Source of the DNA: a virus
Virus record (IMG/VR): IMGVR_UViG_3300042881_002984
Location: 1 to 26,493 of that record
Length of the DNA: 26,493 bases
Strand: one strand, 5' to 3'
Shown here: positions 811 through 25,244 of the stretch, one piece after another
Layout: every line of letters begins with the position of its first letter
Position numbering within the stretch: position 1 is the stretch's first letter
The notes under the pieces: generated by a model
What the model saw: the letters and a program-made list of their open reading frames with translations, nothing else
Told to the model about the DNA's origin: nothing
Database searches by the model: none
Made by a program: the position numbers and the translations under genes

Positions 811-2507
811 CCGAGGCTTGGGCGGCAAGCCATGAAGTGACGATTGCCCCGCCAAAGCCGGGGGTGGTGGCGTGGGCCGAGGGGAATCTGAAGCTCTCCG
901 AGCGAATCACGAACAAGCCGGGGAGCTACCTGACCCAGCGCACGCCGTATGTGCGCGAAGTGTTGGAATGCTTCGCAGACGAAAGGGTGCGGAGGCTGGC
1001 GCTGGTATGGGGGGCGCAGACATCGAAGACCACGGCCATCATCGTGGGCATGGCCTACAAATTGGACAACTCGCCCGCGCCTTGTCTGTGGGTCATGCCG
1101 TCCACGCACCTGGCGCGGTCTTTTTCGGAAACGCGGTGGATGCCATTGATTGACCAGAACCCGACGCTCGCTAGGCACAAGCAGGCCGATCCCGACAAAT
1201 ACCGACTTTTGGAACAACACTTTGACCGCATGAGCGTGTGGTTCACAGGCAGCAACAGCCCCGCCTCGCTTTCCTCGCGCTCGATTGCCGCGCTGTGCAT
1301 GGACGAATTGGACAAGTTCCCGGCCAAGGGCGGCAAGGAATCAGCGCCTTTGCAGTTGGCCGAGGCCCGCGTAGCGACCTATCCGCAGCATATCATCATC
1401 ACAACCTCGACCCCGACCTATGAGGATGGGGCCATTTGGGAAGAATGGCTGAAAGGCGACCAGCGCAAATACTTCGTCCCGTGCGAGGCCTGCGGCGAAA
1501 TGTTTGTCTTGGAGTGGGAGCGCATCAAGTGGGCGCAGGAAGCCAAGCAAGATTCCGCGTGGAACATGGAGATTGTCTCGGAATCGGCGCGTTGCCATTG
1601 CCCGAAGTGCGACCACGCGCACACCGAGGCCGACAAAGCGCAGATGCTTGAGCGTGGCGAATGGCGGGCGACTGACCTTGCCGCCGAGCCAGGGCGGCGC
1701 AGCTACCATCTGTCCTCGCTCTATGCTCCTTGGCGGCGGTGGTCGGATCTGGCCGTGAAATTCCTTCAAGACCGCGAGACGCCGGGGGGCTTGCAAGATT
1801 TCTTCAACCGCGAACTGGCCCTGCCTTGGGTGGCGGCGGGGTCACTCATCACCACGGCGATGATCCGCGAGCGGGTGGATGCCTCGCCGCGTTACACGAT
1901 AGGCCAGCCGCCCGAAGGCAAGATGTTGGGCCGCATCATGTCGGTGGACGTTCAGCAAACGGAACTGTGGTGGATTATCCGCGAATTGCACGAAGACGGG
2001 AGCAGTTACTTGGTCGATTACGGGGCGGCGATTGGGTGGGATTTGGTCATGGAAAAGTTTCGCCATTACAAATGCTTCAAGGGCGTGGTCGATTCGGGCT
2101 ATGCGGCCAAGACCCCGGCAGGCGTTTACTCGTTCGTTGCTCAGTCGGGCGGTCTATTCTGCGCGGCCAAGGGCCGCACGGTGTCGCAGGGATTGCGCGA
2201 GCCGTGGAAATTTCAGCAAATCTTGGGCGCGGGTCACAATATCTGGATGCTGCAATTCGACGCCGAGTTTTGGCAGGCGCGGCTTTACCATGACGTTTTG
2301 CGCGATGGCCGGGGGCGCTGGTATCTGCCGCGCGACATCGCCAAGGACTACGTTTCGCAGTTGCAGGGCGAGGCGCTGATCGAAAAGGAAGGCGTGGCGC
2401 GGTGGCAGCGCCTTGGGCCGAACCACTTGGCCGACTGTGAGAAGATGGCGCTGGTTCTGATCGACTCCATCATGTCGCAGTTCCAAGCGGGCCAGCCCGC
2501 TCCTTGA
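726..2507 (+). CDS. terL: terminase large subunit, GpA family
   Basis: This is the packaging motor ATPase and nuclease. From the ATG at 726 (593 aa) the following are visible: Walker-A-like GAQTSKT (96-102), Walker-B-like CMDELD (191-196), coupling motif TTSTP (226-230), and a zinc-finger-like region with Cys253, Cys256, Cys290, Cys292 and Cys295. Nuclease acidic residues sit in SVDVQ (D408), VVDSGY (D456) and HLAD (D570). The order and surrounding text, such as DQRKYFVPCEACG, match the GpA family. The Walker A lacks the usual Gly before Lys. The start is uncertain: 726 overlaps terS by 85 nt, while an in-frame GTG at 837 would follow terS by 26 nt and give 556 aa. The frame is open further upstream to 264, but that part is the shadow of terS. 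The TGA stop is embedded in TTGACAC. Confidence 0.95.
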   Translation: MGGTGDLDTAKTSGDIAAILERADQGGLAEAWAASHEVTIAPPKPGVVAWAEGNLKLSERITNKPGSYLTQRTPYVREVLECFADERVRRLALVWGAQTSKTTAIIVGMAYKLDNSPAPCLWVMPSTHLARSFSETRWMPLIDQNPTLARHKQADPDKYRLLEQHFDRMSVWFTGSNSPASLSSRSIAALCMDELDKFPAKGGKESAPLQLAEARVATYPQHIIITTSTPTYEDGAIWEEWLKGDQRKYFVPCEACGEMFVLEWERIKWAQEAKQDSAWNMEIVSESARCHCPKCDHAHTEADKAQMLERGEWRATDLAAEPGRRSYHLSSLYAPWRRWSDLAVKFLQDRETPGGLQDFFNRELALPWVAAGSLITTAMIRERVDASPRYTIGQPPEGKMLGRIMSVDVQQTELWWIIRELHEDGSSYLVDYGAAIGWDLVMEKFRHYKCFKGVVDSGYAAKTPAGVYSFVAQSGGLFCAAKGRTVSQGLREPWKFQQILGAGHNIWMLQFDAEFWQARLYHDVLRDGRGRWYLPRDIAKDYVSQLQGEALIEKEGVARWQRLGPNHLADCEKMALVLIDSIMSQFQAGQPAP

Positions 2508-2523
2508 CACACGCCGCGAGTGC
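2504..2523 (+). promoter_or_regulatory. TTGACA junction element before the gpW-like gene
   Basis: TTGACAC lies 20 nt before the GTG start at 2524 and contains the TGA stop of terL. CACGC (2508-2512) can pair with GCGTG (2522-2526), which includes the start codon. No Shine-Dalgarno is present and no -10-like box lies 16-18 nt downstream. Confidence 0.6.
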
Positions 2524-2787
2524 GTGACGGACGCTGCTATTTTGGCCCAAGTTTTTACGGCCTCTGAACTTTCGCAACTCAAAGCCAGTTGTAAGGCTCA
2601 GATCCTTGCTGGCGGGGCGAGTCAAGCGTTCGTGGTGTCAAGCAGTGTGGGCGGGCGCAGCGTCACCCTGCAAAAGTCCTACGATGCATGGGATATGCTT
2701 GGCCTCATCGAGACGGCCCTTGCCATCAATGCCGGGACAATCGGCAACTCGCGTGTGACGCAAATGCGCTTCCCGAATCGCACATGA
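2524..2787 (+). CDS. gpW-like head-tail joining protein
   Basis: A small 87-aa protein between the large terminase and the portal, the position of lambda gpW. Its layout fits gpW: an N-terminal helix (AAILAQVFTASELSQLKASCKAQILAG), a short beta hairpin (AFVVSSSVGGRSVTLQK) and a second helix (AWDMLGLIETALAINAG). gpW-type proteins bind the portal ring after packaging and prepare the head for the tail. The start is GTG at 2524, 20 nt after a TTGACAC element. Its TGA stop overlaps the portal ATG (ATGA), suggesting coupled translation. Assignment is by position and predicted fold; residue identity with lambda W is weak by eye. Confidence 0.65.
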   Translation: MTDAAILAQVFTASELSQLKASCKAQILAGGASQAFVVSSSVGGRSVTLQKSYDAWDMLGLIETALAINAGTIGNSRVTQMRFPNRT

Positions 2788-4313
2788 AGACCAAGCAGAC
2801 CAAATTTGTTGACCGCCTCGCCGCGCGCTTTGGCTTTTCGCGCATGATTGAGGCCGTGAACCACCGCAGCGAGGAGCGCGGTTGGGTTTACGCGCAAGCG
2901 CAGGATTCTAAAGTTGACCTTTCCTCCTATGACCGCACCCGCCTCATGGCGCTTTCGCGTAAATGTTTCTACAACAACGCGATAGTGCGGGGCGCAGTGC
3001 GCGACAAGGCCATGTATTCCGTGGGCAGCGGCATCGGCATTCGCCCGCAAGCCATGTCAGGTGATCAAGCGTGGGACGACGCGGCAGAGCAATGGTGGGA
3101 GAACTGGGCGCGCTCGCCCGAAATCAGCGGGCGGCACGATATGCGCTCCCTGCAAATGCTCGTCTCGGAGGCTATTGACCGGGACGGGGAAATTTTCGCC
3201 ATCCTTACAGCCAAGACAGACGGCGCTCCCGCCGTGCAGATCGTCGAAGCCCACCGCGTAGAGTCGCCCGACACCTCGGCAAGCAACAACGGCGTGGTGG
3301 ACGGCGTGAAGCTCGACAAGTTCCAGCGACCGCTTGGCTATTTTATCGGGGAAGGCGACGAATACCCGCGCCGCCACCGCGAGGTGAAGGCCGACGCCAT
3401 GCTTCACGTTTACGAACCAGAGCGCGCCGACCAAGTGCGCGGTTATCCTGCCATCGGCGTGGCGCTCAACAGCGTTTTGGATCGGGACGAATTGCTGCGC
3501 TTCGAGATGATGGCGGCAAAGGCTGGCAGCAGCATCGGCCTCGTCATCAAAAACTCCACAGGGAACATCGGCGCGGAGGGATTCCTTGGCGACTTCAGCA
3601 AGGACAGCAACGGCAACCTGACCCGCGAAAGCATTTTCGGCGGCGGGCTGGTTCCGCGCATGAAGAATACGGAAGACATTCAATCCTTCGTGATGAACCG
3701 CCCGAACGAGAAGCTCGACAAACACCTTGAGCAATACATTCGCGCAGCGGCCATCGGCCTTGGCCTGCCTTACGAGTTTGTTTGGGACACCAGCGCGATC
3801 GGCGGCGTGGCGCAGCGGTTTATCATTCAGAAGGCGGCGAGATGCTTTGCTGCCCGCCAGGATGTGCTGGTTAATGCGTTCCTGTCGAAACTCTGGCGCT
3901 ATGCGATTGCCCGCGCCATCTCGCGCAAAGAACTTCCCATGAATCCCGGCTGGCAGTCTGTCGGCTGGCAAACTCCGCGCTCGATCACGGTGGACGTAGG
4001 CCGCGAGGCCACCGCCCGCCGCGACGATGTGAAGGCCGGGCTAATGACGCTCTCGGACTACTTCGGTGAGCAGGGCATTGATTGGAAGGAGGCCGTGGCC
4101 GAGATTGCGACCGAACGCGAATTTGCCGCCGATCTTGGTGTGATGATCGGGGTGGAGCAGGCGCAACCGCAAGCCCCCGTGCTGGAAGTTGTCCCGGCGA
4201 TTGATGCGCCAGCGAACAGCGCCCCGCAGTTGGAAAGCAAAGAAGAACCGACAGAGTTGGCCTTGCCCAAGAAGCGCAAACGCATCTACCGTCGCAAGAA
4301 GCCGACTGCTTGA
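2784..4313 (+). CDS. portal protein, lambda gpB type
   Basis: This 509-aa protein forms the dodecameric ring through which DNA enters and leaves the head and on which the capsid nucleates. Recognisable family stretches include YDRTRLMALSRKCFYNNAIV near the N-terminus, a VRDKAMYSVGSGIGIRP segment, SEAIDRDGEIF, EAHRVESPD, HVYEPERADQVRGYP and the LRFEMMAAKAGS helix. All are typical of the lambda-type Phage_portal_2 family. The ATG at 2784 overlaps the preceding stop (ATGA); upstream in-frame ATGs belong to the gpW shadow. The last 15 residues are strongly basic (PKKRKRIYRRKKPTA), probably a DNA- or scaffold-contacting tail. The TGA stop is embedded in the next TTGACA element. Confidence 0.95.
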   Translation: MKTKQTKFVDRLAARFGFSRMIEAVNHRSEERGWVYAQAQDSKVDLSSYDRTRLMALSRKCFYNNAIVRGAVRDKAMYSVGSGIGIRPQAMSGDQAWDDAAEQWWENWARSPEISGRHDMRSLQMLVSEAIDRDGEIFAILTAKTDGAPAVQIVEAHRVESPDTSASNNGVVDGVKLDKFQRPLGYFIGEGDEYPRRHREVKADAMLHVYEPERADQVRGYPAIGVALNSVLDRDELLRFEMMAAKAGSSIGLVIKNSTGNIGAEGFLGDFSKDSNGNLTRESIFGGGLVPRMKNTEDIQSFVMNRPNEKLDKHLEQYIRAAAIGLGLPYEFVWDTSAIGGVAQRFIIQKAARCFAARQDVLVNAFLSKLWRYAIARAISRKELPMNPGWQSVGWQTPRSITVDVGREATARRDDVKAGLMTLSDYFGEQGIDWKEAVAEIATEREFAADLGVMIGVEQAQPQAPVLEVVPAIDAPANSAPQLESKEEPTELALPKKRKRIYRRKKPTA

Positions 4314-4330
4314 CATGAGCCCGTCCGAGT
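4310..4330 (+). promoter_or_regulatory. TTGACA junction element before the capsid protease
   Basis: TTGACA starts 21 nt before the ATG at 4331 and contains the portal TGA stop. No Shine-Dalgarno sequence lies in the 17-nt gap between the two genes. Confidence 0.55.
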
Positions 4331-5170
4331 ATGGACGCGCTAAAATTTGAAGGCATCTCCGTCGCCACCGTTGGCCCGGCTCTCGGTCATGCCATGTTGG
4401 TGGACGATGTGACGCTGTTGCAGGCCGAGGCCGCAGGCGTTGCTGGTTCACCCGTCAAAGTCTTTGTCGATCACGACGAAAGCATTGATTCCCTCATCGG
4501 TTTCCTCGCCAACTTTCGAATTGTCGAAGACCAACTGCGCGCCGACTTGGAACTTCTCGGCTCGCACCCGCAGGCCACTTTCTACAGCGAGATCCTGACC
4601 AAAGCGCCAAACCGTGTCGGTTTTTCCATGACTTTCAGCGGAACGCCCGACGAGCAAGACGGAAAGCGCTTCGCCCGCGTCTCGGAACTGGTCAGCGTGG
4701 ATCTGGTTTCCCGCCCCGCCGCCAACCCTGACGGTGTTTTCCGCGCCGGGTCGGAGCCCGAAGCCGCGCCCGAAGTTGACACCGCCGCAGTGGGCATGAC
4801 TGAAAATAGTTCTGTCGCCAAAGTTGAGTTTGACGCTCAAGCCGCCATCGAATCGTTGGCCGCTTCGGTTGCCGACCTCAAATCCACCGTGGACGGCCTC
4901 GCCGCCGCCAAAGAAGAAACTCCCGCGCCCGTCGCCGCTCCCGTTGATTCGGAAATGGCCGCGAAGCTCGATGCCGCGATGACCAAGCTGTCCGCTCTGG
5001 AAGTCGAACTCGCCGCTCGCGGCGACAACGCCATCACGGGCAACGGTTCCTCCGTTTCGGTCGAAGACGCTTACGCCTCTGGCGACCGCACCACCAAATT
5101 TGAAATCGTCCGCAAGGCGCTTGAGGCCAGCGATTTCTCCCTCATCAACAAGCTCAAACAATCCAAATAA
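4331..5170 (+). CDS. prohead maturation protease with fused scaffold domain
   Basis: A 279-aa protein of two parts. Residues 1-138 look like an assemblin-type (HK97 gp4-like) prohead protease: His48 in VFVDHDES, Ser99 in VGFSMTFSG and the closing VSVDLVSRPAANPDGVF strand. Residues about 150-279 are Ala/Glu/Lys-rich with heptad-like segments (166-195 and 207-231), typical of a scaffold that fills the prohead and is then degraded. An in-frame ATG (residue 156) with its own TTGACAC element would release the scaffold alone, as in lambda C/Nu3. The gene lies between portal and coat, the standard place. Catalytic residues are assigned by pattern; the peptidase clan is inferred and not proven. Confidence 0.8.
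   Translation: MDALKFEGISVATVGPALGHAMLVDDVTLLQAEAAGVAGSPVKVFVDHDESIDSLIGFLANFRIVEDQLRADLELLGSHPQATFYSEILTKAPNRVGFSMTFSGTPDEQDGKRFARVSELVSVDLVSRPAANPDGVFRAGSEPEAAPEVDTAAVGMTENSSVAKVEFDAQAAIESLAASVADLKSTVDGLAAAKEETPAPVAAPVDSEMAAKLDAAMTKLSALEVELAARGDNAITGNGSSVSVEDAYASGDRTTKFEIVRKALEASDFSLINKLKQSK
4776..4795 (+). promoter_or_regulatory. internal TTGACA element inside the protease gene
   Basis: TTGACAC starts exactly 20 nt before an in-frame ATG at 4796 within the protease reading frame. This is the only plus-strand TTGACA found inside a coding region, and it sits where a nested scaffold start is expected. It has no Shine-Dalgarno. Confidence 0.55.
4796..5170 (+). CDS. nested capsid scaffold protein (internal start)
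   Basis: Internal initiation at codon 156 of the protease gene would make a 124-aa protein identical to the protease C-terminus. It begins MTENSSVAKVEFDAQ, followed by helical, coiled-coil-like segments (SLAASVADLKSTVDGL and MAAKLDAAMTKLSALEVEL), a Ser/Gly-rich linker and a basic C-terminal helix ending FSLINKLKQSK. Such a C-terminus commonly docks onto the coat protein. Lambda and many related phages make their scaffold in this way from the protease gene. Support is the in-frame ATG, the position at the domain boundary and the TTGACAC element 20 nt upstream. Expression as a separate product is inferred. Confidence 0.6.
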   Translation: MTENSSVAKVEFDAQAAIESLAASVADLKSTVDGLAAAKEETPAPVAAPVDSEMAAKLDAAMTKLSALEVELAARGDNAITGNGSSVSVEDAYASGDRTTKFEIVRKALEASDFSLINKLKQSK

Positions 5171-5179
5171 CCTACTAAC

Positions 5180-6094
5180 ATGGCCTCCATCACTGGTCTT
5201 AACGACGACATCATCTCGTCAGCGGCGCTCAAAGCGTTCGTTGATTCTCTCCACCCGCTGAACGCTTTCAGCGTGAACTACAACGCCGAAGCCGCGCGCA
5301 AAGGCGAAGTGGTGAGCATCCCGCTCATCTCCTCGATCACCGCCTCCACGTTCAACAACACCTACGAAGGTGCGGACGGAGACGTTACCCTCACCGCCCG
5401 TGAGGTCACGATCGACAAGCACTATCTCAGCACGGTCGATTTCACCGACACGCAATGGAGCAAGTCCTCCGCGCTCACCCCGCAGATGCTTGCCGAAATC
5501 GGCGCAGAGCAGGGCCGCGCAGTGGCGCAGGCTTTCATCAGCGCAGCCTGGGGCATGATCACCACGGGTAACTTCGGCGCGGCGGTTGCCTCGTTCACCT
5601 CGGCCTCGTTCTCGATGGCCGATGTCCGCAAGGCCCGCTTGGAACTTACCAAGGCCAAAGCCCCGCAGAACGACCGCGCGTTGTTCTTGGAGCCGGAAGC
5701 CTACGACGCTCTCCTCTCCGACAGCACCAACATCCTCGCTAACCTCAACTTCGGCCCCGAAGGTGTGCGCGAGGGAGTGGTTCGCCGTCTGGCGGGCATG
5801 AACGTCTACGAGTCCACCCTGATCCCGGCCACCAACGTCGGAACCAGCATCACCCTCGCAGGCTTCGCGGTGCATCCCTCGGCCATCGCCGTGGCAATCC
5901 GCACCCTCCAGCCGCAGGCTCCTTCAGAGTATCTGGAAGCCCGCACCGTGGTCGATCCCGTCTCTGGTATTGGTTTGGGCTATCGCCGTCACTATAACAC
6001 AGCAAATGGGACTCATTTCCTCAATTTTGAGGTGGTGGGCGGATTCACCTACGGCATCACGGCGGGTCTTAAGATCCTCGCCAAGAAAGCCTAA
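5180..6094 (+). CDS. major capsid protein
   Basis: A 304-aa protein directly after the protease/scaffold gene. The N-terminal half has VSIPLISSITASTFNNTYEG, a TAREVTIDKHYLSTVDFTD strand region and a long helix TPQMLAEIGAEQGRAVAQAF resembling the spine helix. The later RALFLEPEAYDALLSD and GMNVYESTLIPA resemble the A-domain of HK97-fold coat proteins used by many Verrucomicrobia- and Bacteroidetes-type phages. It would form the icosahedral shell. The ATG lies 10 nt after the protease stop, without a Shine-Dalgarno, in the context CTAACATG that recurs before several other genes here. A strong terminator follows 30 nt downstream, consistent with a highly expressed last gene of the head unit. Confidence 0.88.
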   Translation: MASITGLNDDIISSAALKAFVDSLHPLNAFSVNYNAEAARKGEVVSIPLISSITASTFNNTYEGADGDVTLTAREVTIDKHYLSTVDFTDTQWSKSSALTPQMLAEIGAEQGRAVAQAFISAAWGMITTGNFGAAVASFTSASFSMADVRKARLELTKAKAPQNDRALFLEPEAYDALLSDSTNILANLNFGPEGVREGVVRRLAGMNVYESTLIPATNVGTSITLAGFAVHPSAIAVAIRTLQPQAPSEYLEARTVVDPVSGIGLGYRRHYNTANGTHFLNFEVVGGFTYGITAGLKILAKKA

Positions 6095-6122
6095 AGACTG
6101 TTCTGGTTCGTGTGTTCAGCAG

Positions 6123-6150
6123 ACCCCTGGCTATGCCGGGGGTTTTGCTT
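6123..6150 (+). terminator. intrinsic terminator after the coat gene
   Basis: CCCCTGGC (6124-6131), loop TAT, then GCCGGGGG (6135-6142) form an 8-bp GC-rich stem with one T-G pair. TTTTGCTTTT follows immediately. It would stop or attenuate transcription between the coat gene and the glycosyltransferase gene. Confidence 0.85.
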
Positions 6151-6159
6151 TTGGTGAAG

Positions 6160-6181
6160 TTGACAGGCCCGCCGTGGCCGC
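6160..6181 (+). promoter_or_regulatory. TTGACA element before the two-domain glycosyltransferase
   Basis: TTGACAG starts 22 nt before the ATG at 6182. Here it is not linked to an upstream stop codon, because the coat gene ended 65 nt earlier. GGCC (6166-6169) and GGCC (6176-6179) can form a short stem between it and the start. Confidence 0.55.
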
Positions 6182-7933
6182 ATGGACACACAGCCTTCCT
6201 TGGCGTTGGTCGCTATTACTGGAAATAGCGAGGGTTACATCGGGCGATTCATCGAGGCTTTCCAAAAGCTCACGCCCCACATCTACATTGTCCGCGCCTG
6301 CGGCGGCAGGGAACCAGATCGTTCGCTCGACATTGCCCGCGAAATGGGGTGCAAGACGGGCGAATACAAGAACGCCGAAGCGTTCCAGTTTTGGGATCAT
6401 GTGGACAACTTCGCCGCCGCCCGGCAGATGGCGACGGACATGGCCGAGGCAGACGGCCACGACTGGCTCATTTGGGCCGATACGGACGATATTATTGAGC
6501 AAGAGTCCTGCGACATCATCCGCCAGCATTTGCGCGAGACGGCCCCCACGACCACGCTGGCGATGGTTCCCTATCGGTTGACCAATAATGGACTAAACCT
6601 CTTGCGTGAGCGCATCTGGCGGCGCGGGACGGCCAAGTGGGACGGCGCTGTTCACGAACACCTTGAACCCTTGGACAAATCGGGAGACGGGCAAGTGAGG
6701 TGGGAGGACGCCCGCATTGTCCACGCCCCTGACGAAAAGAAAGACGAGGCATCCGAAAAGCGCGGCAATGCCCGCAACTGGCGCATCATTGAATCGCAGC
6801 CCGACTGGGACAAAGACCCGCGCTGGATTTTCTACGGCAGCCTTGAGCATTTCGGCATGAAAAAGGATGCGCGCGGCATGGAACTCGCCATCGAGGCGCT
6901 CAAACACGAATCGCTCTCAGGGGATGAGCGGTATGAGCTTTATCTGCAACTCGCCATGCGGACGCAGGCATTCGCGCCGAAGAAATCGCTATTGCACGAA
7001 GCCTACAAGGTCAGTCCGTGGCGCAGGGAAGCCTTGGCCCAACTCGCGGCCACCAGCCTGGACAGCGGCGAGGCGCAAGATGCCCTGGCCTATGCCCGCG
7101 CATTTATGGCCCTGCCTGTGCCAGAGATTGTCCCGTGGACACACCGCCCGGTGGTCTATGGCTTCGGCGGCGTCGGGCTTTACGCCTGCACTCTGCGCGC
7201 CAATGGCGACACCGAGCGCGCCGATCAATTTGAATTGGAGTGGTTCAAGAAGTGCGGGGCAAAGATCAGCGTATGCCACCCGACCCGTGGCCGTCCGCTG
7301 CAAGCTGCCGAGACGCGCAAGAAGTGGCTGGAAGCGGCCAAAGACCCGCAAAGCGTGGAATACATCTTTGGTTTTGCCGAGGATGATGACGAGACGCGGG
7401 ACGTTTTGGGTCGATTCAAGCACGGCCTTTCGCCCGCTGGCCTCATGGATCAAGTCGGCGGAAACGCCGTGGCGAATTACAACGCGGCAGTAAAGGCATC
7501 GTCAGGGCAAATCATCGTCACCGCACAGGATGACATCGAGCCGCCGCTATTTTGGGACGAGCTTGTTTGGCAGGCGTTGGAACCGCACCTAAAGCGCCCG
7601 AAAGTGCTTGGCGTGAAAGACGGCCACCGCACGGACGGCCTCATGGTGACGTTCATTTGCACCCGGCCAACCCTCGGCTGGCTTGGCAACGGTGGAGGAA
7701 TCCTGTCTGGCGACTATCACGGCATTTATTCCGACACGGAATTTTCCCACCGCACGCGCAAAGCCGGGATCGTCTTGGACAGCGAGATTGTGTTTCTGCA
7801 TAACCACCCGTTTTTTGATCCCAAGGTCGCCACGGATGCCGTCTACGATGTGGAGAACTCCGACGCGGCCAACAAATTCGGGGCCGAGGTCTTCAAGCGC
7901 CGCAACCCTGACGCCTTTGACTCCAAGGATTAG
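6182..7933 (+). CDS. two-domain glycosyltransferase with central TPR-like region
   Basis: A 583-aa protein. Residues 1-165 resemble a GT-A fold family-2 glycosyltransferase: a first strand LALVAITGNSEGYIGRFIEAF, the metal/nucleotide motif WADTDD (D100-x-D102) and WDGAVHEHL. Residues about 215-355 are helical and TPR-like (LEHFGMKKDARGMELAIEAL and SLDSGEAQDALAYARAFM). Residues 361-545 look like a second glycosyltransferase domain: KISVCHPTRGRP, TAQDDIEPP (D450-D451), SGDYHGIYSDTEFSHR and FLHNHP. It would transfer sugars from nucleotide donors in the cytoplasm; the acceptor is unknown. It lies between coat and connector genes, behind a terminator and with its own TTGACA element, so it looks like an inserted cargo gene. 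Virion, host-surface or DNA-base glycosylation are all possible. Confidence 0.75.
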   Translation: MDTQPSLALVAITGNSEGYIGRFIEAFQKLTPHIYIVRACGGREPDRSLDIAREMGCKTGEYKNAEAFQFWDHVDNFAAARQMATDMAEADGHDWLIWADTDDIIEQESCDIIRQHLRETAPTTTLAMVPYRLTNNGLNLLRERIWRRGTAKWDGAVHEHLEPLDKSGDGQVRWEDARIVHAPDEKKDEASEKRGNARNWRIIESQPDWDKDPRWIFYGSLEHFGMKKDARGMELAIEALKHESLSGDERYELYLQLAMRTQAFAPKKSLLHEAYKVSPWRREALAQLAATSLDSGEAQDALAYARAFMALPVPEIVPWTHRPVVYGFGGVGLYACTLRANGDTERADQFELEWFKKCGAKISVCHPTRGRPLQAAETRKKWLEAAKDPQSVEYIFGFAEDDDETRDVLGRFKHGLSPAGLMDQVGGNAVANYNAAVKASSGQIIVTAQDDIEPPLFWDELVWQALEPHLKRPKVLGVKDGHRTDGLMVTFICTRPTLGWLGNGGGILSGDYHGIYSDTEFSHRTRKAGIVLDSEIVFLHNHPFFDPKVATDAVYDVENSDAANKFGAEVFKRRNPDAFDSKD

Positions 7934-7936
7934 GGC

Positions 7937-9171: not shown

Positions 9172-10049
9172 TCCACCGCCAATTAGAAGCTCAATTTGCC
9201 GCCCGCATCGAAGCCGCCCGCACGGGAACCGCGCTCGCAGGCATTCCAATTCGCTATGCCGTTCCGACCGATCCGCTGGCCCTGCCGTGCGTTATCGTCT
9301 CGGCGGCAGGCTCCGAGCTTGTCGAGGGCGGGGTGAGATCCGCCAGCCGGGTAAGCATGGATTTTAGCGTTCTGACCTCGGCCAATGACGGAACAGGCTG
9401 GCAGACATCCCACAAGAACCGTGTGGCCGCGCTCTCGCGTATTTTGGACGATACCAATACCAACACCGCGCTTGCCGCCATCAACGCGGCACAGACCGAT
9501 TTAACACTATACGGATGGCATCTGGTCGAGCTTTCGGGCAACACCGCACCGAACATCCAGACCGACACCATCCGCATCAGCGCCGTGGCAGGCGACCGAA
9601 TCGCCACCGCACCCACAGGCCCGACATCGGCCACTCCGCAAACCTACAGCCTGCGCCATGAGATCGAGCAAATCGTGTCAGCCCACCTTGGCACCGAGCT
9701 TCCGAGCGCCGTAACAGACGATTACACCGTGTATCCCTACTACTCGGAAACCACAGCCCCGCCCCGGCGCATTGTCGCCGCCTGCTTGTCGGCCAGCCGA
9801 CCCTTCCCGCAGTTGGCCCGATGGCAGGCTGATGCCACCATTCACATCATCAGCCCCGGCGAATACGCCAGCGCCCATGACGAGGTGGTGGAGCAAGTCG
9901 AGGAAACCCTGCGCGAGATCGTGGCCCAAGACTTCACCTCGGCCAACGTCACGGTTGCCGGGCTGTTGGAAAGCGCGCACTCGGTCGATACGGCCAACAA
10001 CCGCATTACTGACGTTCTTAGCGTGACCCTCTATTGCCAGCAGAATTGA
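9168..10049 (+). CDS. tail terminator-like protein, apparently two tandem domains
   Basis: A 293-aa protein that reads as two copies of one fold. Each half has an N-terminal helix (HRQLEAQFAARIEAA and LRHEIEQIVSAHLG), then a Pro-containing strand (PLALPCVIVSAAG and APPRRIVAACLSA), a beta-bulge strand pair, a helix (SHKNRVAALSRIL and AHDEVVEQVEETLREI) and a final strand (TIRISAVAGD and VLSVTLYCQQN). This layout fits lambda gpU-type tail terminators, which cap the tail tube and join it to the head. The ATG overlaps the preceding stop (ATGA). The TGA stop is embedded in TTGACAC. The duplication is judged by eye from secondary-structure pattern, not by alignment. Confidence 0.5.
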   Translation: MIHRQLEAQFAARIEAARTGTALAGIPIRYAVPTDPLALPCVIVSAAGSELVEGGVRSASRVSMDFSVLTSANDGTGWQTSHKNRVAALSRILDDTNTNTALAAINAAQTDLTLYGWHLVELSGNTAPNIQTDTIRISAVAGDRIATAPTGPTSATPQTYSLRHEIEQIVSAHLGTELPSAVTDDYTVYPYYSETTAPPRRIVAACLSASRPFPQLARWQADATIHIISPGEYASAHDEVVEQVEETLREIVAQDFTSANVTVAGLLESAHSVDTANNRITDVLSVTLYCQQN

Positions 10050-10065
10050 CACGCCCGGCGAGGGT
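10046..10065 (+). promoter_or_regulatory. TTGACA element before the tail tube candidate
   Basis: TTGACAC starts 20 nt before the ATG at 10066 and contains the upstream TGA stop. GCCC (10053-10056) and GGGT (10062-10065) can pair just before the start codon. Confidence 0.6.
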
Positions 10066-15875: not shown

Positions 15876-15897
15876 TTGACACTGCCGCCGCCTCCGA
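15876..15897 (+). promoter_or_regulatory. TTGACA element before the second glycosyltransferase
   Basis: TTGACAC starts 22 nt before the GTG at 15898, in the 25-nt gap after the Ser/Thr-rich gene. CACT (15880-15883) and AGTG (15897-15900), which includes the start codon, can pair. Confidence 0.55.
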
Positions 15898-17333: not shown

Positions 17334-17340
17334 CGGCTTT
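17325..17340 (+). terminator. weak hairpin at the end of the epimerase gene
   Basis: AGCCG (17325-17329), a 4-nt loop, then CGGCT (17334-17338) form a 5-bp stem followed by only TTT, which runs into the next TTGACAC element. It could be a weak attenuator; evidence is thin. Confidence 0.25.
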
Positions 17341-17364
17341 GACACAGAGGGCGAGGGCAAGGCC
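17339..17364 (+). promoter_or_regulatory. TTGACA element before the first BppU-like gene
   Basis: TTGACAC starts 26 nt before the ATG at 17365, the longest spacing of the set. Unlike the other copies, purine-rich GAGGG and AAGG stretches lie between it and the start. Confidence 0.5.
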
Positions 17365-17902: not shown

Positions 17903-18427
17903 ATGAAAACCTTTTTCACCCTCCTCCTCGCCACCCTCTGCGCGGCAACAAGCTACGGGCAGACGATGAAGGCGCTGATGTATAACACGAACGGGCGCAT
18001 CGCTTACAGCGGAACCAACGAGCTAATGTTCACAAATGCCGTTGGTTTTGCCGAGGGCGACTTGGAAATCACGGAGGCTGGCGGTATTGCGTGGGCTGGA
18101 GAACTGAAATACGAACCGGAGTCACAAACCTTTTTTTCGGCTTTGCAGTTTTCCTCGACCAATGTTTCCGCCGCCACCCGCACCAACTTGTCTCTCGGTG
18201 CCACATGGCTCTCCATCACCAACGTGACCAATTTCCGCTCGGCTATTGGCTTGGGGCTCCCCGCCCTGACCAACACCAGCAACGTCACCACGATGCGGGC
18301 GCTGGCGGGCAGCACGAATACAAATCAGCCGTTTAGCGGGACGTTTACATTCACAGACGGAGATGGATTGAACAGTTATTCCGCAGTTGTTTCAAACGGC
18401 ATAATTGTTTCCGTTACGGAGTATTAA
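17903..18427 (+). CDS. exported protein with signal peptide, function unknown
   Basis: A 174-aa protein with a clear Sec signal peptide: MKTFFTLLLATLCAATSYGQ, with basic n-region, hydrophobic core and probable cleavage after SYG. The mature part is Thr/Asn/Ser-rich and beta-like, with ATWLSITNVTNFRSAIGLGLPALT and a C-terminal TFTFTDGDGLNSYSAVVSNGIIV that resembles the closing beta strand of trimeric fibre tips. It lies between two baseplate-like genes in one tight operon (1 nt after the previous stop, CTAACATG/TTAACATG-type context). Export of a protein from inside a tail operon is unusual. It may coat the host surface, act in superinfection exclusion, or be a displayed adhesin. Confidence 0.55.
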   Translation: MKTFFTLLLATLCAATSYGQTMKALMYNTNGRIAYSGTNELMFTNAVGFAEGDLEITEAGGIAWAGELKYEPESQTFFSALQFSSTNVSAATRTNLSLGATWLSITNVTNFRSAIGLGLPALTNTSNVTTMRALAGSTNTNQPFSGTFTFTDGDGLNSYSAVVSNGIIVSVTEY

Positions 18428-18428
18428 C

Positions 18429-18614
18429 ATGAGCATCCACGACCCCATCGATTTCTTTTCGCGGCCACTCATCGGCGTCTCGACCTCCCTCGGCAGCGTG
18501 ATTGTGAGCCTGCTGCCGCACCTTGAGACTGCCGCACGCTTAGGAGTCCTTGGACTCGGCCTCGTCGCGGGACTGCTGACCGTTCGCAAAGCATGGAGGG
18601 ATCGGAACAAATGA
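18429..18614 (+). CDS. small two-helix membrane protein (holin-like)
   Basis: A 61-aa protein with two predicted membrane segments (about 14-30, PLIGVSTSLGSVIVSLLP, and 37-52, RLGVLGLGLVAGLLTV) and a basic C-terminal tail RKAWRDRNK. This architecture fits a class II holin or antiholin. It has a GGAG sequence 8 nt before ATG and its end overlaps the next start (ATGA). It is separated by about 4 kb from the main lysis genes, so a second holin, an antiholin, or a membrane partner of the neighbouring secreted protein are all possible. Confidence 0.5.
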   Translation: MSIHDPIDFFSRPLIGVSTSLGSVIVSLLPHLETAARLGVLGLGLVAGLLTVRKAWRDRNK

Positions 18615-18976
18615 GCGCGTGCAATTCCTCACAGGCTGATCTTTGCTGGACGCGGGGCGACTCTGGGCGGCTCGATGTCTCGGTCAAAGACACGGACGGC
18701 GCGGCCTACAACCTTACAGGGGCCACGCTTTTTTTGACGGTGAAGTCCGCGCTCACCGATGCAGATTCTGCCGCTGTGATTCGCAAAGAGGTCACGAGCC
18801 ACAGCAACGCGACGGGTGGGATTTCCCACTTTGATCTTCTGACCACGGACAACGCCACCGCAGGGACGCGCTATTACGATGTTCAAGTAAAAGATTCGAC
18901 CAACAAAATCTACACGCTTTTCGGCGGCTTGTGGAAAGTCCTCTCCGACGTAACCACTCGCACCGCACCGCTCTAA
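18611..18976 (+). CDS. BppU-N-like baseplate protein
   Basis: A 121-aa protein with the pattern of a baseplate upper protein N-terminal domain. It reads WTRGDSGRLDVSVKDTDG, YNLTGATLFLTVKSA, ISHFDLLTTDNATAGTRYYDVQVKD and TLFGGLWKVLSDVTTRTAP. It would form the adaptor ring that carries the receptor-binding protein. The start ATG overlaps the membrane protein stop and has GGAGGG about 11 nt upstream. The tail fibre gene starts 1 nt after its stop, which supports a physical partnership. The match is by motif pattern, and is stronger than for the 17365 gene. Confidence 0.65.
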   Translation: MSACNSSQADLCWTRGDSGRLDVSVKDTDGAAYNLTGATLFLTVKSALTDADSAAVIRKEVTSHSNATGGISHFDLLTTDNATAGTRYYDVQVKDSTNKIYTLFGGLWKVLSDVTTRTAPL

Positions 18977-18977
18977 C

Positions 18978-21422: not shown

Positions 21423-21424
21423 AT

Positions 21425-22096
21425 ATGGCTTACGGATTTACAGCCAGCCCACAGGCAAACATTACTGGAACCTATACCAGCCACCTTGGACTTACAAAAT
21501 TCACATTGGCTCTGTGGATAAGGCGCGATTCTTCAGGCTCTCAGCAAGGTGTTGGATTCAATTCTGGCAGCGGCGTGACGGAAACGAGCCACAGATCGCA
21601 TATCACTCACTTTACTGACAATAGGATGTATTTCGTCATTTGTAATGGATCTTCAACAAATGGAAACGGAAATACATTGCAAAACATAACAGGATGGAAC
21701 CACTGGGCAATGGTATTTGACGGAACACAGCCCACTAATGCAACGCGACTGAATGGCTATGTTAACGGAGTTTCGCAGTCCCTTACATTCTCTGGAAGTA
21801 TACCGTCCTCACTATCCAGCAATGCGGTTAACCAACAGCTTAACATAGGATGGAACAGGGCAAACAATGTTTATAGCGTTGGAGCGATGGCAGAATTTTC
21901 CACTTGGGAAGATGCACTGACTGCAGAAGAAATCGCATCTCTCTCTAAAGGTTTTACGCCGTCAAACATTAGGCCCGACAAGCTATTGTCTCACATTCCG
22001 CTTTTAAGAAATTTGCAAGACGTTGTAGCGGCAAACGCTTTGACCAATACAAGCGGCAACGCCACCGTCGCCAACCACCCGCGAGTTTATGCCTAA
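21425..22096 (+). CDS. LamG-like (concanavalin fold) tail protein
   Basis: A 223-aa protein with the LamG/jelly-roll signature: FTLALWIRRDSSGSQQGVGF, WNHWAMVFDGTQ, LNGYVNGVSQSLTFSG, LNIGWN and GAMAEFSTWEDALTAEEI. This fold commonly binds carbohydrate and is widespread as a terminal domain of phage receptor-binding proteins. The sequence is clearly A+T-richer than the flanking fibre and accessory genes and uses ATA and AGA codons more, suggesting separate acquisition. AAGGAG lies 12 nt before the ATG, and the stop overlaps the next gene by 8 nt. It is likely an accessory receptor binder. Confidence 0.7.
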   Translation: MAYGFTASPQANITGTYTSHLGLTKFTLALWIRRDSSGSQQGVGFNSGSGVTETSHRSHITHFTDNRMYFVICNGSSTNGNGNTLQNITGWNHWAMVFDGTQPTNATRLNGYVNGVSQSLTFSGSIPSSLSSNAVNQQLNIGWNRANNVYSVGAMAEFSTWEDALTAEEIASLSKGFTPSNIRPDKLLSHIPLLRNLQDVVAANALTNTSGNATVANHPRVYA

Positions 22097-22520
22097 CTTA
22101 TACTACCGCATCTCCGACCCGAACGATGTCCGCGACCTTGGCGACCAAGTGGCCGCATGGCAGGCCACTGGTAATCCCAAGGCCGACGATTGGGCCGTGC
22201 AGCCAGCCGCGCCATCAGCAGATGCCGTGTGGCAGGATGGGGCTTGGAGTGTGCCGCCTGTGGCGACGATGACCGCCGAAGAGGCTGTTGCTCAATACTT
22301 CTCGCCTTACCAGACGCTCGCCTTGCAGCGTTTTGAGATGGCCCTACTCCAAGCAGGCAAGCCGCTCGGCGTGAAGATGACCTCCTGCAAGCAATGGCTG
22401 GAATCCGTCATGCTGGGCTGGGCGATGAATCCAACACCTGCACCATCGGCCGGCTTTGGAAGTCCTGCGGCGAGCTTTGAAGAGGCCAGCGCCGAGGCTG
22501 TCACCGATCTCGCCGGGTAG
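22089..22520 (+). CDS. tail fibre accessory or assembly protein candidate
   Basis: A 143-aa protein after the receptor-binding genes, overlapping the LamG gene by 8 nt. It has a Trp-rich N-terminal half (VAAWQATGNPKADDWAVQP, WQDGAWSVPP) and a helical middle (PYQTLALQRFEMALLQAGKPLGVKMTSCKQWLESV). The Trp-x-Asp-Gly-Ala-Trp pattern and the position resemble phage tail fibre assembly or accessory proteins. There is no conserved chaperone signature. It is followed by a short gap with a TTGACAC element that opens the lysis genes. Confidence 0.45.
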   Translation: MPNLYYRISDPNDVRDLGDQVAAWQATGNPKADDWAVQPAAPSADAVWQDGAWSVPPVATMTAEEAVAQYFSPYQTLALQRFEMALLQAGKPLGVKMTSCKQWLESVMLGWAMNPTPAPSAGFGSPAASFEEASAEAVTDLAG

Positions 22521-22523
22521 GCT

Positions 22524-22542
22524 TTGACACCCCTGCGGGGGC
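22524..22542 (+). promoter_or_regulatory. TTGACA element before the lysis genes
   Basis: TTGACAC starts 19 nt before the ATG at 22543. CCCC (22530-22533) and GGGG (22537-22540), with loop TGC, form the strongest hairpin of the whole set immediately before the start codon. Confidence 0.6.
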
Positions 22543-22710
22543 ATGAACTACCTCGTTGCGAGACTCAAAGAGCAGTCCACTTATTCGGGCCTGCTGGCCC
22601 TGCTTTCCGCCCTCGGTCTGGCCGTCGATCCCGAACAGTTTTCGGCCATCGCCGCCGCCGTGATAGCCTTGGTCGGAGTCTTTGAGGTCTTTCGCCGGGA
22701 GAGCAAGTAA
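22543..22710 (+). CDS. holin
   Basis: A 55-aa membrane protein with two predicted segments (14-28, YSGLLALLSALGLAV, and 34-50, FSAIAAAVIALVGVFEVF) and a basic end RRESK. It fits a small class II holin that would form membrane holes and time lysis. It begins the lysis cluster behind its own TTGACAC element and ends TAATG-overlapped with the lipoprotein gene. The amidase follows shortly, as expected in a holin-lipoprotein-endolysin cassette. Confidence 0.65.
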   Translation: MNYLVARLKEQSTYSGLLALLSALGLAVDPEQFSAIAAAVIALVGVFEVFRRESK

Positions 22711-22847
22711 TGCGCGCCGTCATCTTGGCGCTGGCCGCGCTGGTCCTCACGGGCTGCGCGGGAACCAAGTTCAACCTCGGCTACGACTTCAACGCGAAGA
22801 AGTTTTTTGCCGAGATCGAGCAGCCGTTAAGCGGCTACAAAAAGTGA
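22710..22847 (+). CDS. small lipoprotein, spanin-like
   Basis: A 45-aa protein with a lipoprotein signal: MRAVILALAALVLTGC, lipobox LTGC, Cys16 as lipid site and Ala17 at +2, which usually means outer-membrane sorting. The mature part is only about 30 residues (AGTKFNLGYDFNAKKFFAEIEQPLSGYKK). Between holin and endolysin, such a protein is a good candidate for an outer-membrane spanin subunit (Rz1-like), although no inner-membrane partner was found nearby. It is coupled to both neighbours by overlaps of start and stop codons, and supports a Gram-negative type host. Confidence 0.6.
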   Translation: MRAVILALAALVLTGCAGTKFNLGYDFNAKKFFAEIEQPLSGYKK

Positions 22848-23485
22848 ACCCGCTCAAATGGTTCAGTCATTTATTCGCGGTCTTTCGCGCTGGCCCACCG
22901 TCGATCTCGCGGAACTTATCCACGCCATCCAAGCTATCCTTGCCAAGCGAGCCAAAGAAGCCGAGCGCGCCACCAAAAAGCGCCCCAAGCACAAAGGCGA
23001 AAAGCCCTAAGAGCTACCCCGAAAAACTGCTCAACACGCCGAACGTGTCGAAGGGCAAGCGCATCAAGCCGAAGGCTATCGTCCTGCATCACACTTCGGG
23101 CTCTTACGCTGGCAGCGTGGCGTGGTGCATGAATCCTGCCAGCCGCGTGTCTTACCATTGCATCGTAGCAAAGGACGGACGGCGCTCCACGTTGGCCGAT
23201 CCAGACGAGCGCACATGGCACGCTGGGCGCAGCGAATGGCGCGGCAAGCGCGACTTGAACAGTTGGAGCATCGGCGCGGCCTTTGAAGGCGACACCTACA
23301 AGCGCCCGTTAAGCGAGGACGAGATGGCCTCGATGGCCGAATACCTTGAGCCACTTATGAAGCTGTATCGGCTCACGCTGGATGATGTGACCGACCACCG
23401 CACCGTTAGCCCCGGCAGGAAGGATGACCTTAACCCCGTCGAGTTTACGCGCTTCAAGGCTTATTTGGCAAAGCGATTAACATGA
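22844..23485 (+). CDS. N-acetylmuramoyl-L-alanine amidase (endolysin)
   Basis: A 213-aa enzyme that would cut the bond between muramic acid and the peptide stem. It starts at GTG 22844 (GTGA overlap with the lipoprotein stop). Residues 1-18 are hydrophobic and aromatic (NPLKWFSHLFAVFRAG). Residues 20-58 are a Pro/Ser/Lys linker. The Amidase_2 domain covers about 75-213. Family marks are VLHHTSG (His82/83), VSYHCIV, TWHAG (His126), DHRTVSPGRKDDLNP with His185 and Asp195 as probable metal ligands. It lacks a cleavable signal peptide; the N-terminal hydrophobic stretch could be a membrane anchor. Longer open frame upstream of 22844 is the shadow of the holin and lipoprotein genes. Confidence 0.85.
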   Translation: MNPLKWFSHLFAVFRAGPPSISRNLSTPSKLSLPSEPKKPSAPPKSAPSTKAKSPKSYPEKLLNTPNVSKGKRIKPKAIVLHHTSGSYAGSVAWCMNPASRVSYHCIVAKDGRRSTLADPDERTWHAGRSEWRGKRDLNSWSIGAAFEGDTYKRPLSEDEMASMAEYLEPLMKLYRLTLDDVTDHRTVSPGRKDDLNPVEFTRFKAYLAKRLT

Positions 23486-23498
23486 AAGGAGGACACCT

Positions 23499-23630
23499 AT
23501 GCACCGATCAACCGAGTTTGGCCTTGTTTACGGCCCATACGGCGGCATCGGCTTCATCCCGCGCATCACTCCGAGGCGAACTGCGGTTCGTTTCAGCGTG
23601 ATGCGTTGGTTTATGAAGCTGTTTGCGTAA
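23499..23630 (+). CDS. small 43-aa protein with strong Shine-Dalgarno
   Basis: A 43-aa protein (starting MHRSTEFGLVYGPYGG and ending VMRWFMKLFA) that follows the amidase stop by 13 nt. AAAGGAGG at 23485-23492 lies 6 nt before the ATG, one of the strongest ribosome sites in the window. The Gly/Pro/Tyr-rich centre and amphipathic basic C-terminus resemble small phage-encoded peptides, but no family is recognised. An alternative ATG at 23482 (TTAACATG) gives a different-frame ORF; codon use favours the 23499 frame. It is the last plus-strand gene before the convergent minus operon. Confidence 0.55.
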   Translation: MHRSTEFGLVYGPYGGIGFIPRITPRRTAVRFSVMRWFMKLFA

Positions 23631-23692
23631 ACCAAAGAGCCGTTTGATATACACAACGCCGCTTTGTGCATAGCGAAGTTCACACAAGGGGA

Positions 23693-23707
23693 GGGGCAAT
23701 TTGCCCC
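23693..23707. terminator. palindrome between convergent gene groups
   Basis: GGGGCAA (23693-23699), T, TTGCCCC (23701-23707) is a perfect 7-bp palindrome with a 1-nt centre, located between the end of the 43-aa gene (plus) and the end of the minus operon. It would act as a two-way terminator, but T-runs are poor on both sides. Confidence 0.45.
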
Positions 23708-23712
23708 CTTCC

Positions 23713-23865
23713 TTAGCGCCATCCCAAAGCAATCGCCATGAACCCCGCGTTGGCGCAGGCATAAAACAGGAAGCACGTTCCGAGGGCTGGCTGTCCTTGG
23801 CTCCAGAATCCGTAGGCCGTCCAAAGGTAGCAGACGGTGGTGATGACGAGCGGCCAGAAGGTCAC
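23713..23865 (-). CDS. small two-helix membrane protein, last gene of minus operon
   Basis: A 50-aa protein read from GTG at 23865 whose start overlaps the metalloprotease stop (GTGA). Two membrane segments are visible, VTFWPLVITTVCYLWTAYGF (1-20) and LGTCFLFYACANAGFMAIAL (28-47), joined by a polar loop WSQGQPA. Aromatic content is high. The 4-nt overlap repeats the spacing of the three genes before it, supporting a real translated cistron despite its size. The function is unknown: holin-like, exclusion, or an envelope partner of the protease are possible. Confidence 0.6.
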   Translation of the reverse strand: MTFWPLVITTVCYLWTAYGFWSQGQPALGTCFLFYACANAGFMAIALGWR

Positions 23866-24206
23866 GAAGCTTTGTGCCTCCCGATGCTGATTTTGCCGTC
23901 ATTGCACCGAGTCGCCGCCCACCGAACCACCGCGCAGACCAGCCGCTCCAAGTCCCGAACGTGCGTTTCGTCAGTCGGAGGGATGCAGGCGTGCGTTAAT
24001 TCGTGCGTCACAATGCCGAGTAAGTCGCCTTTCACAGCCGAAGGATTTAGCCAGATCGTCTTGCGGCGGTAATGGCACAGGCCGTCGAGCTTTTCCTTGT
24101 CGGGTGGACGCTCTACCCGGACGCGCCACCATTGGCCGTCGAGCTTGAAGCGCATCGTCGGTGCGGGTTTCTTGCGCTTGCGCGGGGCTGTGGCGGGCTT
24201 TTTCAT
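23862..24206 (-). CDS. HELTH-type zinc metalloprotease
   Basis: A 114-aa protein from ATG at 24206 (ATGA overlap with the HTH gene). Residues 1-17 are basic and Pro-rich. The core GQWWRVRVERPPDKEKLDGLCHYRRKTIWLNP leads to the HExxH motif VTHELTHA (His68, Glu69, His72), with Glu80 or Asp84/Glu87 in PTDETHVRDLERLV as possible third ligand. Length and layout resemble compact phage metallopeptidases (ImmA/IrrE- or WLM-like relatives). Longer frame upstream is the shadow of the HTH gene. With an HTH partner directly upstream, it may cleave a regulator, but the target is unknown. Confidence 0.7.
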   Translation of the reverse strand: MKKPATAPRKRKKPAPTMRFKLDGQWWRVRVERPPDKEKLDGLCHYRRKTIWLNPSAVKGDLLGIVTHELTHACIPPTDETHVRDLERLVCAVVRWAATRCNDGKISIGRHKAS

Positions 24207-24487
24207 TTGAGGCGGTAATGCCGAAGCGCCAAAACACGCTGCCCGCAGGGAACGCGAAACATCGCCGTCTCGCAGCGGCCTTGCTCGGCGGCTTTGCGGA
24301 TGAGCTTTGCCATGTGGCTTTCGCTTTTTCCGAGTAGGGCGGCGATCTCGCTCATGCGGAGCCAGCCGGGCGGCACTTCGTCGGTGGCGGCTTGGGTCGA
24401 GAGGGCCGCGCACCACTGGGCGAGGTCAGGATCGAGGGGTGGGGGCAAATTGCCGCCAGCCTTGGTGGTCAAAATTTTTGACCTCAT
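24203..24487 (-). CDS. small helix-turn-helix protein
   Basis: A 94-aa protein with an HTH in WLRMSEIAALLGKSESHMAKLIRKAAEQG (42-70), the recognition helix being SESHMAKLIRKA, followed by a short basic beta wing-like end (ALRHYRLK). It probably binds DNA. The start ATG overlaps the phosphoesterase stop (ATGA) and its stop overlaps the protease ATG. A 17-bp palindrome lies within its first codons. The gene is the second of the minus operon. Regulator, or DNA-binding partner of the protease, are both possible. Confidence 0.6.
   Translation of the reverse strand: MRSKILTTKAGGNLPPPLDPDLAQWCAALSTQAATDEVPPGWLRMSEIAALLGKSESHMAKLIRKAAEQGRCETAMFRVPCGQRVLALRHYRLK
24467..24483. repeat. 17-bp palindrome inside the start of the HTH gene
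   Basis: GGTCAAAATTTTTGACC is a perfect palindrome (arms GGTCAAAA and TTTTGACC around one T) covering codons 2-7 of the HTH gene. The position suggests autoregulation or a hairpin that modulates coupling between the first two genes of the operon. Confidence 0.45.
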
Positions 24488-25224
24488 AGGGGGAGGTGGT
24501 AATGCGGATCAAAGACCGCGATGTTCACCGTGCAGTGAGAACCGTTGAAATGCCCGTATGCCGCCGCGTGCCGCCATCCAAGGGTCTGCCGGCGCTGGGC
24601 CGAATAGCCAATGTCCAGCTTGATGCCGCAGCCGATGTTATAGCCGATGGCTTTGGCGTGAGTCCTAGCTGACTCCATCGCCACGCGGTGCGTGTGGCCC
24701 ATAACAATGCTGCGCCCGCTCATCTCTGCCACGTCACGAGCGGCAGAAACTCCATACAAAGATCCGTGGGTAAATCCCGTGTCGCCGAGCAGGAATATGC
24801 CCGCCGGGTGAACGCCGACGTATGGCACGACCTGGCACTTAATCTTGCCCATCTCGTCCATGATTCGGCCCATGACGTTGCCGGCGGCGTAGGAAAGGAC
24901 GGCGTTGGGCGAATGGGCCAACTCGGTTAGTCTCGCCTCATGGTTGCCGAGAAGGTAGACGTTCGGCTTGAGTTGCTTGAGGAAAGCCAACCCCTGCATG
25001 AGGTCATCAGCCAAGTCGGCGGCGTGGTCTGCGCTGTCCGAGTCTTTGCGCGCTCCAGAGCGGAGGCACCGGGCATCTATGGCGTCTCCAAGGTGCAGGG
25101 TGAACTGCGGCTTCCACGCTTCTTTAAGCCGAAGCATGGCATCGAGGGCGCGGGGGTCGGCCTCGGCCCCGTGGGTGCAACTGACTGCCAGATACTTTTG
25201 CCAGCCTTTGGTCTTGGACGCCAC
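24484..25224 (-). CDS. metallophosphoesterase, calcineurin-like
   Basis: A 246-aa protein from GTG at 25224. It has the calcineurin-family motif series LHLGDAIDARCL (GDxxD-type), LLGNHEARL (GNHE), FTHGSLYG and VMGHTHR (GHTH). The first motif, normally Asp-x-His, reads AVSCTHG, so the first metal ligand appears to be Cys. The protein would hydrolyse a phosphoester (phosphodiester, nucleotide or protein phosphate); the substrate is not deducible. It is the promoter-proximal gene of a four-cistron minus operon and carries a TTGACA element 20 nt before its start. GTG rather than an upstream ATG is chosen because of that spacing. Confidence 0.8.
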   Translation of the reverse strand: MASKTKGWQKYLAVSCTHGAEADPRALDAMLRLKEAWKPQFTLHLGDAIDARCLRSGARKDSDSADHAADLADDLMQGLAFLKQLKPNVYLLGNHEARLTELAHSPNAVLSYAAGNVMGRIMDEMGKIKCQVVPYVGVHPAGIFLLGDTGFTHGSLYGVSAARDVAEMSGRSIVMGHTHRVAMESARTHAKAIGYNIGCGIKLDIGYSAQRRQTLGWRHAAAYGHFNGSHCTVNIAVFDPHYHLPL

Positions 25225-25244
25225 GAAGCGGCGCGCTATGTCAA
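25225..25244 (-). promoter_or_regulatory. TTGACA element before the minus-strand operon
   Basis: On the minus strand, TTGACAT starts at 25244, 20 nt before the GTG at 25224, the same spacing as on the plus strand. CGCC and GGCG flanking the start can pair. An exact match on the opposite strand argues for a shared function. Confidence 0.55.

Follow-up and report, generated by a model that had tools for sequence, protein, structure and literature searches.

The 26,493-base virus record IMGVR_UViG_3300042881_002984 of IMG/VR (hereafter the window, meaning this whole stretch) encodes a lambda-like head module with a GpA terminase, a lambda-family portal and a major capsid protein, and carries the hexamer TTGACA at a nearly constant distance before many of its start codons. 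Comparison with other viral and bacterial sequences identifies TTGACA as a real start-associated element that lies about 14 nt before many late genes in several bacteriophage groups. The element is phage-specific, and the host does not use it for genes of its own; it appears to be independent of Shine-Dalgarno (SD) sequences and is not a string of sigma-70 promoters. Judging from sequence comparison, we assign a probability of about 0.5 to the reading that it is a start-associated sequence, not previously described, that acts on translation, and we favor translation over a phage promoter as its mechanism.

A TTGACA element before start codons in the window and its relatives

The window contains nine copies of TTGACA on the plus strand, eight of which lie 20, 21, 20, 22, 20, 22, 26 and 19 nt before a start codon. 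On the minus strand, one copy (25239-25244) lies 20 nt before a start, and a second (2636-2641) lies within a coding sequence (CDS). The nine plus copies, the start-associated minus copy and all the distances are exactly as given in the first-pass annotation, which was made from this DNA alone. The total number of copies is at chance (11 against 11.6 expected); the start-proximal placement of eight of the nine plus-strand copies is non-random (P about 2e-16). The copies and the features next to them are as follows.

2504-2523, plus strand: TTGACA and a 14-nt spacer, then GTG 2524 of a small head gene in the terL-portal interval; the terL TGA stop lies within TTGACA, and the element is kept in relatives
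4310-4330, plus strand: TTGACA and a 15-nt spacer, then ATG 4331 of the head protease/scaffold gene; the portal TGA stop lies within TTGACA
4776-4795, plus strand: TTGACA and a 14-nt spacer within the protease gene, then the in-frame internal ATG 4796, a putative scaffold start; the arrangement recurs in other lineages
6160-6181, plus strand: TTGACA and a 16-nt spacer with a GGCC/GGCC hairpin, then ATG 6182 of a glycosyltransferase-like gene
7917-7936, plus strand: the variant TTGACT and a 14-nt spacer, then ATG 7937; in relatives, too, an ATG follows TTGACT at this offset
10046-10065, plus strand: TTGACA and a 14-nt spacer with a CGCCC GGCG AGGGT hairpin, then ATG 10066 of a tail gene; the upstream TGA stop lies within TTGACA
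15876-15897, plus strand: TTGACA and a 16-nt spacer, then GTG 15898
17339-17364, plus strand: TTGACA and a 20-nt spacer, then ATG 17365; 17-24 nt in orthologues
22524-22542, plus strand: TTGACA and a 13-nt spacer with a CCCC TGC GGGG hairpin, then ATG 22543 of a 55-aa gene in the lysis region
25225-25244, minus strand: TTGACA and a 14-nt spacer, then GTG 25224 of a metallophosphatase-like gene
6121-6145, plus strand: strong terminator-like hairpin with a T-run, 3' of the major capsid gene and followed after 14 nt by the next element; relatives conserve the hairpin
51-56, plus strand: TTGACA before the terminase region, with no suitably spaced start codon behind it; one relative, G016, conserves it

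At this last site, the window and G016 (near 18839) have in common a conserved TTGACACCCGCCAGTCTCAA followed by a hairpin-like AACAAGG/CCTTGTT.

Relatives were collected by a TerL scan of viral contigs, which yielded 55 loci. In these loci ATG or GTG follows TTGACA mainly at an offset of 20-23 from the first base of the hexamer, TTGACT gives one peak, at offset 20, and TTGACC, TTGACG and TTGATA give no start-codon offset peak. The enrichment before starts that the first-pass annotation expected of related phages is found in 20 whole records of relatives, where the pattern TTGACAN{14,17}RTG has 156 matches and a reversed control has 14. When hexamers at positions -30 to -12 in the phages were counted without bias, TTGACA likewise ranked first, with 58 genes against 0.9 expected.

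The hexamer is invariant while the spacers vary. The protease gene has 14 distinct spacers among 82 orthologous elements, and the internal scaffold start has 16 distinct spacers behind a constant TTGACA. Across gene clusters, the spacer measures 13-17 nt in 79 of 91, the next base is C in 44 of 65, in line with the C noted in most copies of the window, and the sequence flanking TTGACA(C) carries almost no information. Scanning viral contigs for the pattern added phage groups whose DNA shows no detectable similarity to that of the window family, and most of their TTGACA copies lie 13-17 nt before a start. A structural module is common to the window family, these added lineages and Moulinsart by remote protein homology. 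By TerL, Moulinsart is the closest isolate, yet the motif is absent from it despite this common module.

Late genes, gene arrangement and the host

We counted the genes that carry the element by class in four genomes, taking as uncoupled those whose gap measures 15 nt or more. The motif precedes 24 of 48 uncoupled late genes. Among tightly packed (coupled) late genes the count drops to 1 of 57 (P 2e-9), and among early genes having gaps of that size it is 1 of 26. Intergenic gaps of 15-18 nt offer exactly enough room for an element that contains the upstream stop. The first-pass annotation was right that tightly coupled genes lack the element; its rule that terS alone lacks the element among genes set 16 nt or more from their upstream neighbour was too strong, since in the wider set about half of the uncoupled late genes and almost all early genes, and in the window the amidase gene near 22.8-23.1 kb, are without it. 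The portal gene has the element in C20p, G252 and G258 and not in the window family, and a homologue of the 15898 product with 63% identity is encoded without it. The element tracks gene arrangement, not gene identity. In several lineages it is also found before the internal, in-frame start of the scaffold, and it marks late genes unable to be translationally coupled. It can improve the calling of start sites in these phages, internal scaffold starts included.

Of the same uncoupled late genes, 5 of 48 are preceded by a 4-mer SD core, against 34 of 68 early genes. G is enriched at positions -4 to -2, nearer the start than the usual SD spacing. Early genes (e.g. in L067 and L073) are often preceded by AAGGAGAACACACACA-type leaders, which combine an SD with a CA-rich sequence, unlike late genes.

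Because TTGACA is identical to the -35 consensus, ordinary host sigma-70 promoters have to be considered. No -10 box follows at 16-18 nt, as the first-pass annotation had observed, either in the window or in the 91 clusters; the clusters show no -10 enrichment at any offset, and no copy in the window is part of a consensus promoter. Transcription from such promoters would begin inside genes, and host genes have no such element at this distance. We therefore reject sigma-70 promoters, which we regard as having next to no chance of explaining the element.

A motif scan of bacterial genomes returned mostly scattered single matches and one prophage, in a metagenome-assembled genome (MAG) of 'Chthoniobacter flavus' (Verrucomicrobiota, G021). 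The prophage, which has a GpA terminase, lies between prfB (release factor) and leuS (leucyl-tRNA synthetase) on a contig that also has chromate transporter genes around it, and it encodes the homologue mentioned above, 63% identical to the 15898 product. At least one motif-bearing phage group infects Verrucomicrobiota. A TerL scan of bacterial genome contigs found no host.

The first-pass annotation had also proposed counting the signal in the host, and here the outcome is negative. In 340 kb of the host MAG the motif profile is flat relative to starts, and upstream of the starts of 238 of its genes no hexamer is enriched, nor is an SD. The motif was not found at rpsL/rpsG of 30 genomes of the same order, and 14 of 16 whole genomes have no excess over a shifted-spacer control. 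Other Verrucomicrobiota with high raw counts show no 13-17 nt peak in the stretches of 16-63 kb per genome that were covered. The flat MAG profile, rpsL/rpsG and the 14 genomes rule out TTGACA as a general start signal of the host.

The two remaining genomes have an excess of a different make-up. The large excess in G269 comes mostly from a dispersed non-coding repeat, TTGACAC[T/C]NGCA...CCCCCATG (L406-L434), which is present in many copies, tied to RTPNSEL tandem repeats and unrelated to gene starts. The mild excess in G285 is concentrated on two contigs, C18 and C22, with seven and eight TTGACA-N13-17-ATG matches within about 20 kb and 10 kb, respectively; these clusters are possibly prophages.

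The tetramer GTAC may offer a second link to the host. It occurs 0 times against 85 expected in the window and 2 times against 716 in the host MAG; it is also nearly absent from most motif phages but normal in G241 and G244. Since the near-absence extends to the host and to most, not all, motif phages, there are probably at least two host groups. The scarcity of GTAC may be a host signature or the trace of a restriction system. GCATGC has 0 copies in the window and ten relatives (367 kb) against 87 in the host MAG (340 kb). The element itself helps to tie metagenomic phages to host groups.

A translation signal or a DNA site

The reading that we favor would place the element in late mRNA, as UUGACA(C) followed by 13-17 nt, often with a small GC hairpin, and then AUG or GUG. 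At an uncoupled late gene, or at an internal in-frame start such as that of the scaffold inside the protease, it would flag the start for de novo entry of ribosomes. It would substitute for an SD sequence in recruiting the ribosome; a ribosomal protein, for example S1, or else a phage factor may bind it where the mRNA leaves the 30S subunit (position -20 to -15). In its most specific form this becomes an SD-independent signal of defined sequence for ribosome entry (UUGACA, 14 nt before the start), used only by uncoupled late genes in phages of SD-poor hosts. A trans-acting factor of the phage or the ribosome would read it, which would give late translation a programme distinct from that of the host. 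We put this fuller version forward tentatively, at somewhat less than even odds.

A role in RNA is suggested by a spacing set from the start codon, by the lack of the motif at coupled genes, and by spacers that are GC-rich and self-complementary. The region after the hexamer is 67% GC, and the spacers fold at -1.96 against -1.29 +/-0.14 for shuffled spacers. When halves were exchanged between genes, the swapped controls for 13-17 nt spacers folded as well as the real ones in 0 of 300 cases in each of three trials; the effect is weaker for 14-nt spacers alone (0.06, 0.007 and 0.01). The stem sequence is not conserved among spacers. Such a GC-rich spacer would be hard to melt, which together with the lack of -10 enrichment speaks against a promoter.

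Several observations weigh against an action on translation. The hairpin is missing from many elements and is unrelated to spacer length; the short stem before the start proposed in the first-pass annotation is present at many elements and in the folding of the spacers as a population, but not at all elements. The accessibility of TTGACA is not above that of a shuffled hexamer in the same context. One full Verrucomicrobiota 16S rRNA, with a canonical CCTCC tail, contains no TGTCAA and so does not support pairing of TTGACA with 16S rRNA. TTGACA has no known binding partner. Moreover, the CDS of motif phages are depleted of TTGACA and TGTCAA alike, and a helix-turn-helix (HTH) protein is the only non-structural protein that was found in each of the five near-complete motif lineages but not in Moulinsart.

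The both-strand depletion suggests recognition of double-stranded sequence, that is, of DNA. In the window family it stands at about 0.15 in sense (start-associated copies excluded) and 0.25-0.32 in antisense; in the host it is milder (0.58-0.65 and 0.70-0.78), and Moulinsart CDS show no such depletion. TGTCAA ranks 103rd of 3,930 and 27th of 3,513 hexamers in depletion, behind GTAC-containing and palindromic sites, and this rank and the relatedness of the genomes make the both-strand depletion moderate evidence. An effect on both strands could also arise in RNA, were UGUCAA to mask the element. Separately, a search for a conserved small RNA with UGUCAA produced nothing convincing, and Rfam and tRNA scans gave no matches.

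The HTH gene (L067:17637-18152, with homologues in alignment A3) lies directly before the terminase region, and its product is a candidate late regulator. A fold model of the protein, of moderate confidence, has no significant PDB match. The TTGACA of the HTH gene itself overlaps ATG ATT GAC and was not counted as an element because it may be coding sequence. Together with the conserved terminator before the element of gene 6182, the conserved HTH protein is compatible with transcription control. In view of the depletion on both strands, the HTH protein and the terminator before one copy, a DNA-level role has to be reckoned with.

One such role would be that of a phage late promoter, in which TTGACA is the DNA core, read with a phage factor that could be the HTH protein, and transcription starts just before the start codon to give leaderless or very short-leadered mRNAs. 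The restriction to late genes, the both-strand depletion in CDS, the position of the HTH gene beside the late genes, the terminator before the element of gene 6182 and the lack of SD enrichment in the host all agree with it. In T4-type late promoters, a single short element at a fixed distance from the transcription start is read by a phage sigma factor. Here, however, the region to be melted is the GC-rich, self-complementary spacer, which speaks against the T4 type as well; no second promoter element is found at any offset, and the spacing suits neither a -35 nor a -10 position. About ten serial promoters would be needed at uncoupled genes and none at coupled ones, and GTG is the start codon in 18 of 91 clusters, which makes leaderless mRNAs unexpected. 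We consider a late promoter unlikely, though it is one of the two main rivals to a translation signal.

A second DNA-level role is that of an operator resembling the stoperators of cluster A mycobacteriophages, asymmetric sites at which a phage repressor binds in many places and halts prophage transcription. TGTCAA, which is TTGACA read on the opposite strand, forms part of the 13-bp stoperator consensus GGTGGMTGTCAAG. Matches to this 13-mer within 3 mismatches number 21 in the window against a shuffle mean of 12.2, at the top of the shuffle range, but only two of the nine start-associated copies (2504 and 4310) are among them. Depletion on both strands would suit an operator, and stoperators set a precedent for dispersed asymmetric sites in a single orientation relative to transcription and in short intergenic spaces (PMC6550527, PMC9283540). 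Unlike these 13-bp DNA operators, the element is conserved only over the 6-7 bp of TTGACA(C) and keeps a fixed distance from the start codon. Neither that distance nor the near absence from coupled and early genes is expected of operators, and one hexamer is common to lineages expected to differ in immunity. An operator is thus an improbable explanation.

Cleavage at UUGACA by an endoribonuclease that sets the 5' ends of late transcripts would account for the fixed position before starts and the single orientation in late transcripts. No candidate nuclease was identified, and processing leaves the antisense depletion and the absence from coupled genes unexplained; we give it a slim chance. Of the first-pass proposal of a translation-start or RNA element in place of sigma-70 promoters, the start association, the apparent SD independence and the dismissal of sigma-70 promoters stand, and the spacing and the absence from coupled genes fit; the restriction to late genes and the case for a DNA-level role qualify it.

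Comparison with known systems

A translation signal of this kind would operate where SD use is low. In Bacteroidota and some Verrucomicrobiota, SD use is scarce though the anti-SD is kept (PMC6847099, PMC10783764). As in SD-independent initiation in these bacteria, starts would be picked by other features of the leader; there, however, an A at -3 and low structure serve host genes, whereas here a phage-only hexamer lies at -20. How ribosomes choose starts in bacteria that barely use SD sequences is an open question, for which the hexamer offers a small, mutable handle.

Enterobacterial ACA enhancer motifs upstream of the SD raise translation, and ACA is present in S1-binding ligands from systematic evolution of ligands by exponential enrichment (PMC3879156). 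Like them, the element has ACA within a short sequence ahead of the start region, which hints at S1 as a possible reader. The enhancers differ in working together with an SD and in their loose spacing, whereas here the full hexamer stands at near-fixed spacing without an SD.

The nearest known kind of element is the Start-Associated Sequences (SAS/ESAS) of cluster K mycobacteriophages, which occur in 11-19 copies per genome, about half with an associated inverted repeat, and whose function is unknown (PMC3203893, PMC12699233). Both are short asymmetric repeats that lie in one orientation near the starts of some of the genes and in places include the upstream stop codon; both are rare in host genomes and conserved across groups (subclusters in the case of SAS). 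The cluster K SAS is a 13-bp sequence, GGGATAGGAGCCC, with an SD core; it is placed 3-7 bp from the start and precedes non-structural genes only. The element described here consists of TTGACA(C), is placed just upstream of late genes at 13-17 nt from the start, has no SD core complementary to 16S rRNA, and has its inverted repeats between motif and start; the window contains no match to GGGATAGGAGCCC with up to 2 mismatches. The discoverers of SAS were inclined to a role in translation, without deciding (PMC3203893), and the TTGACA element revives the unsolved question of what mycobacteriophage start-associated sequences do.

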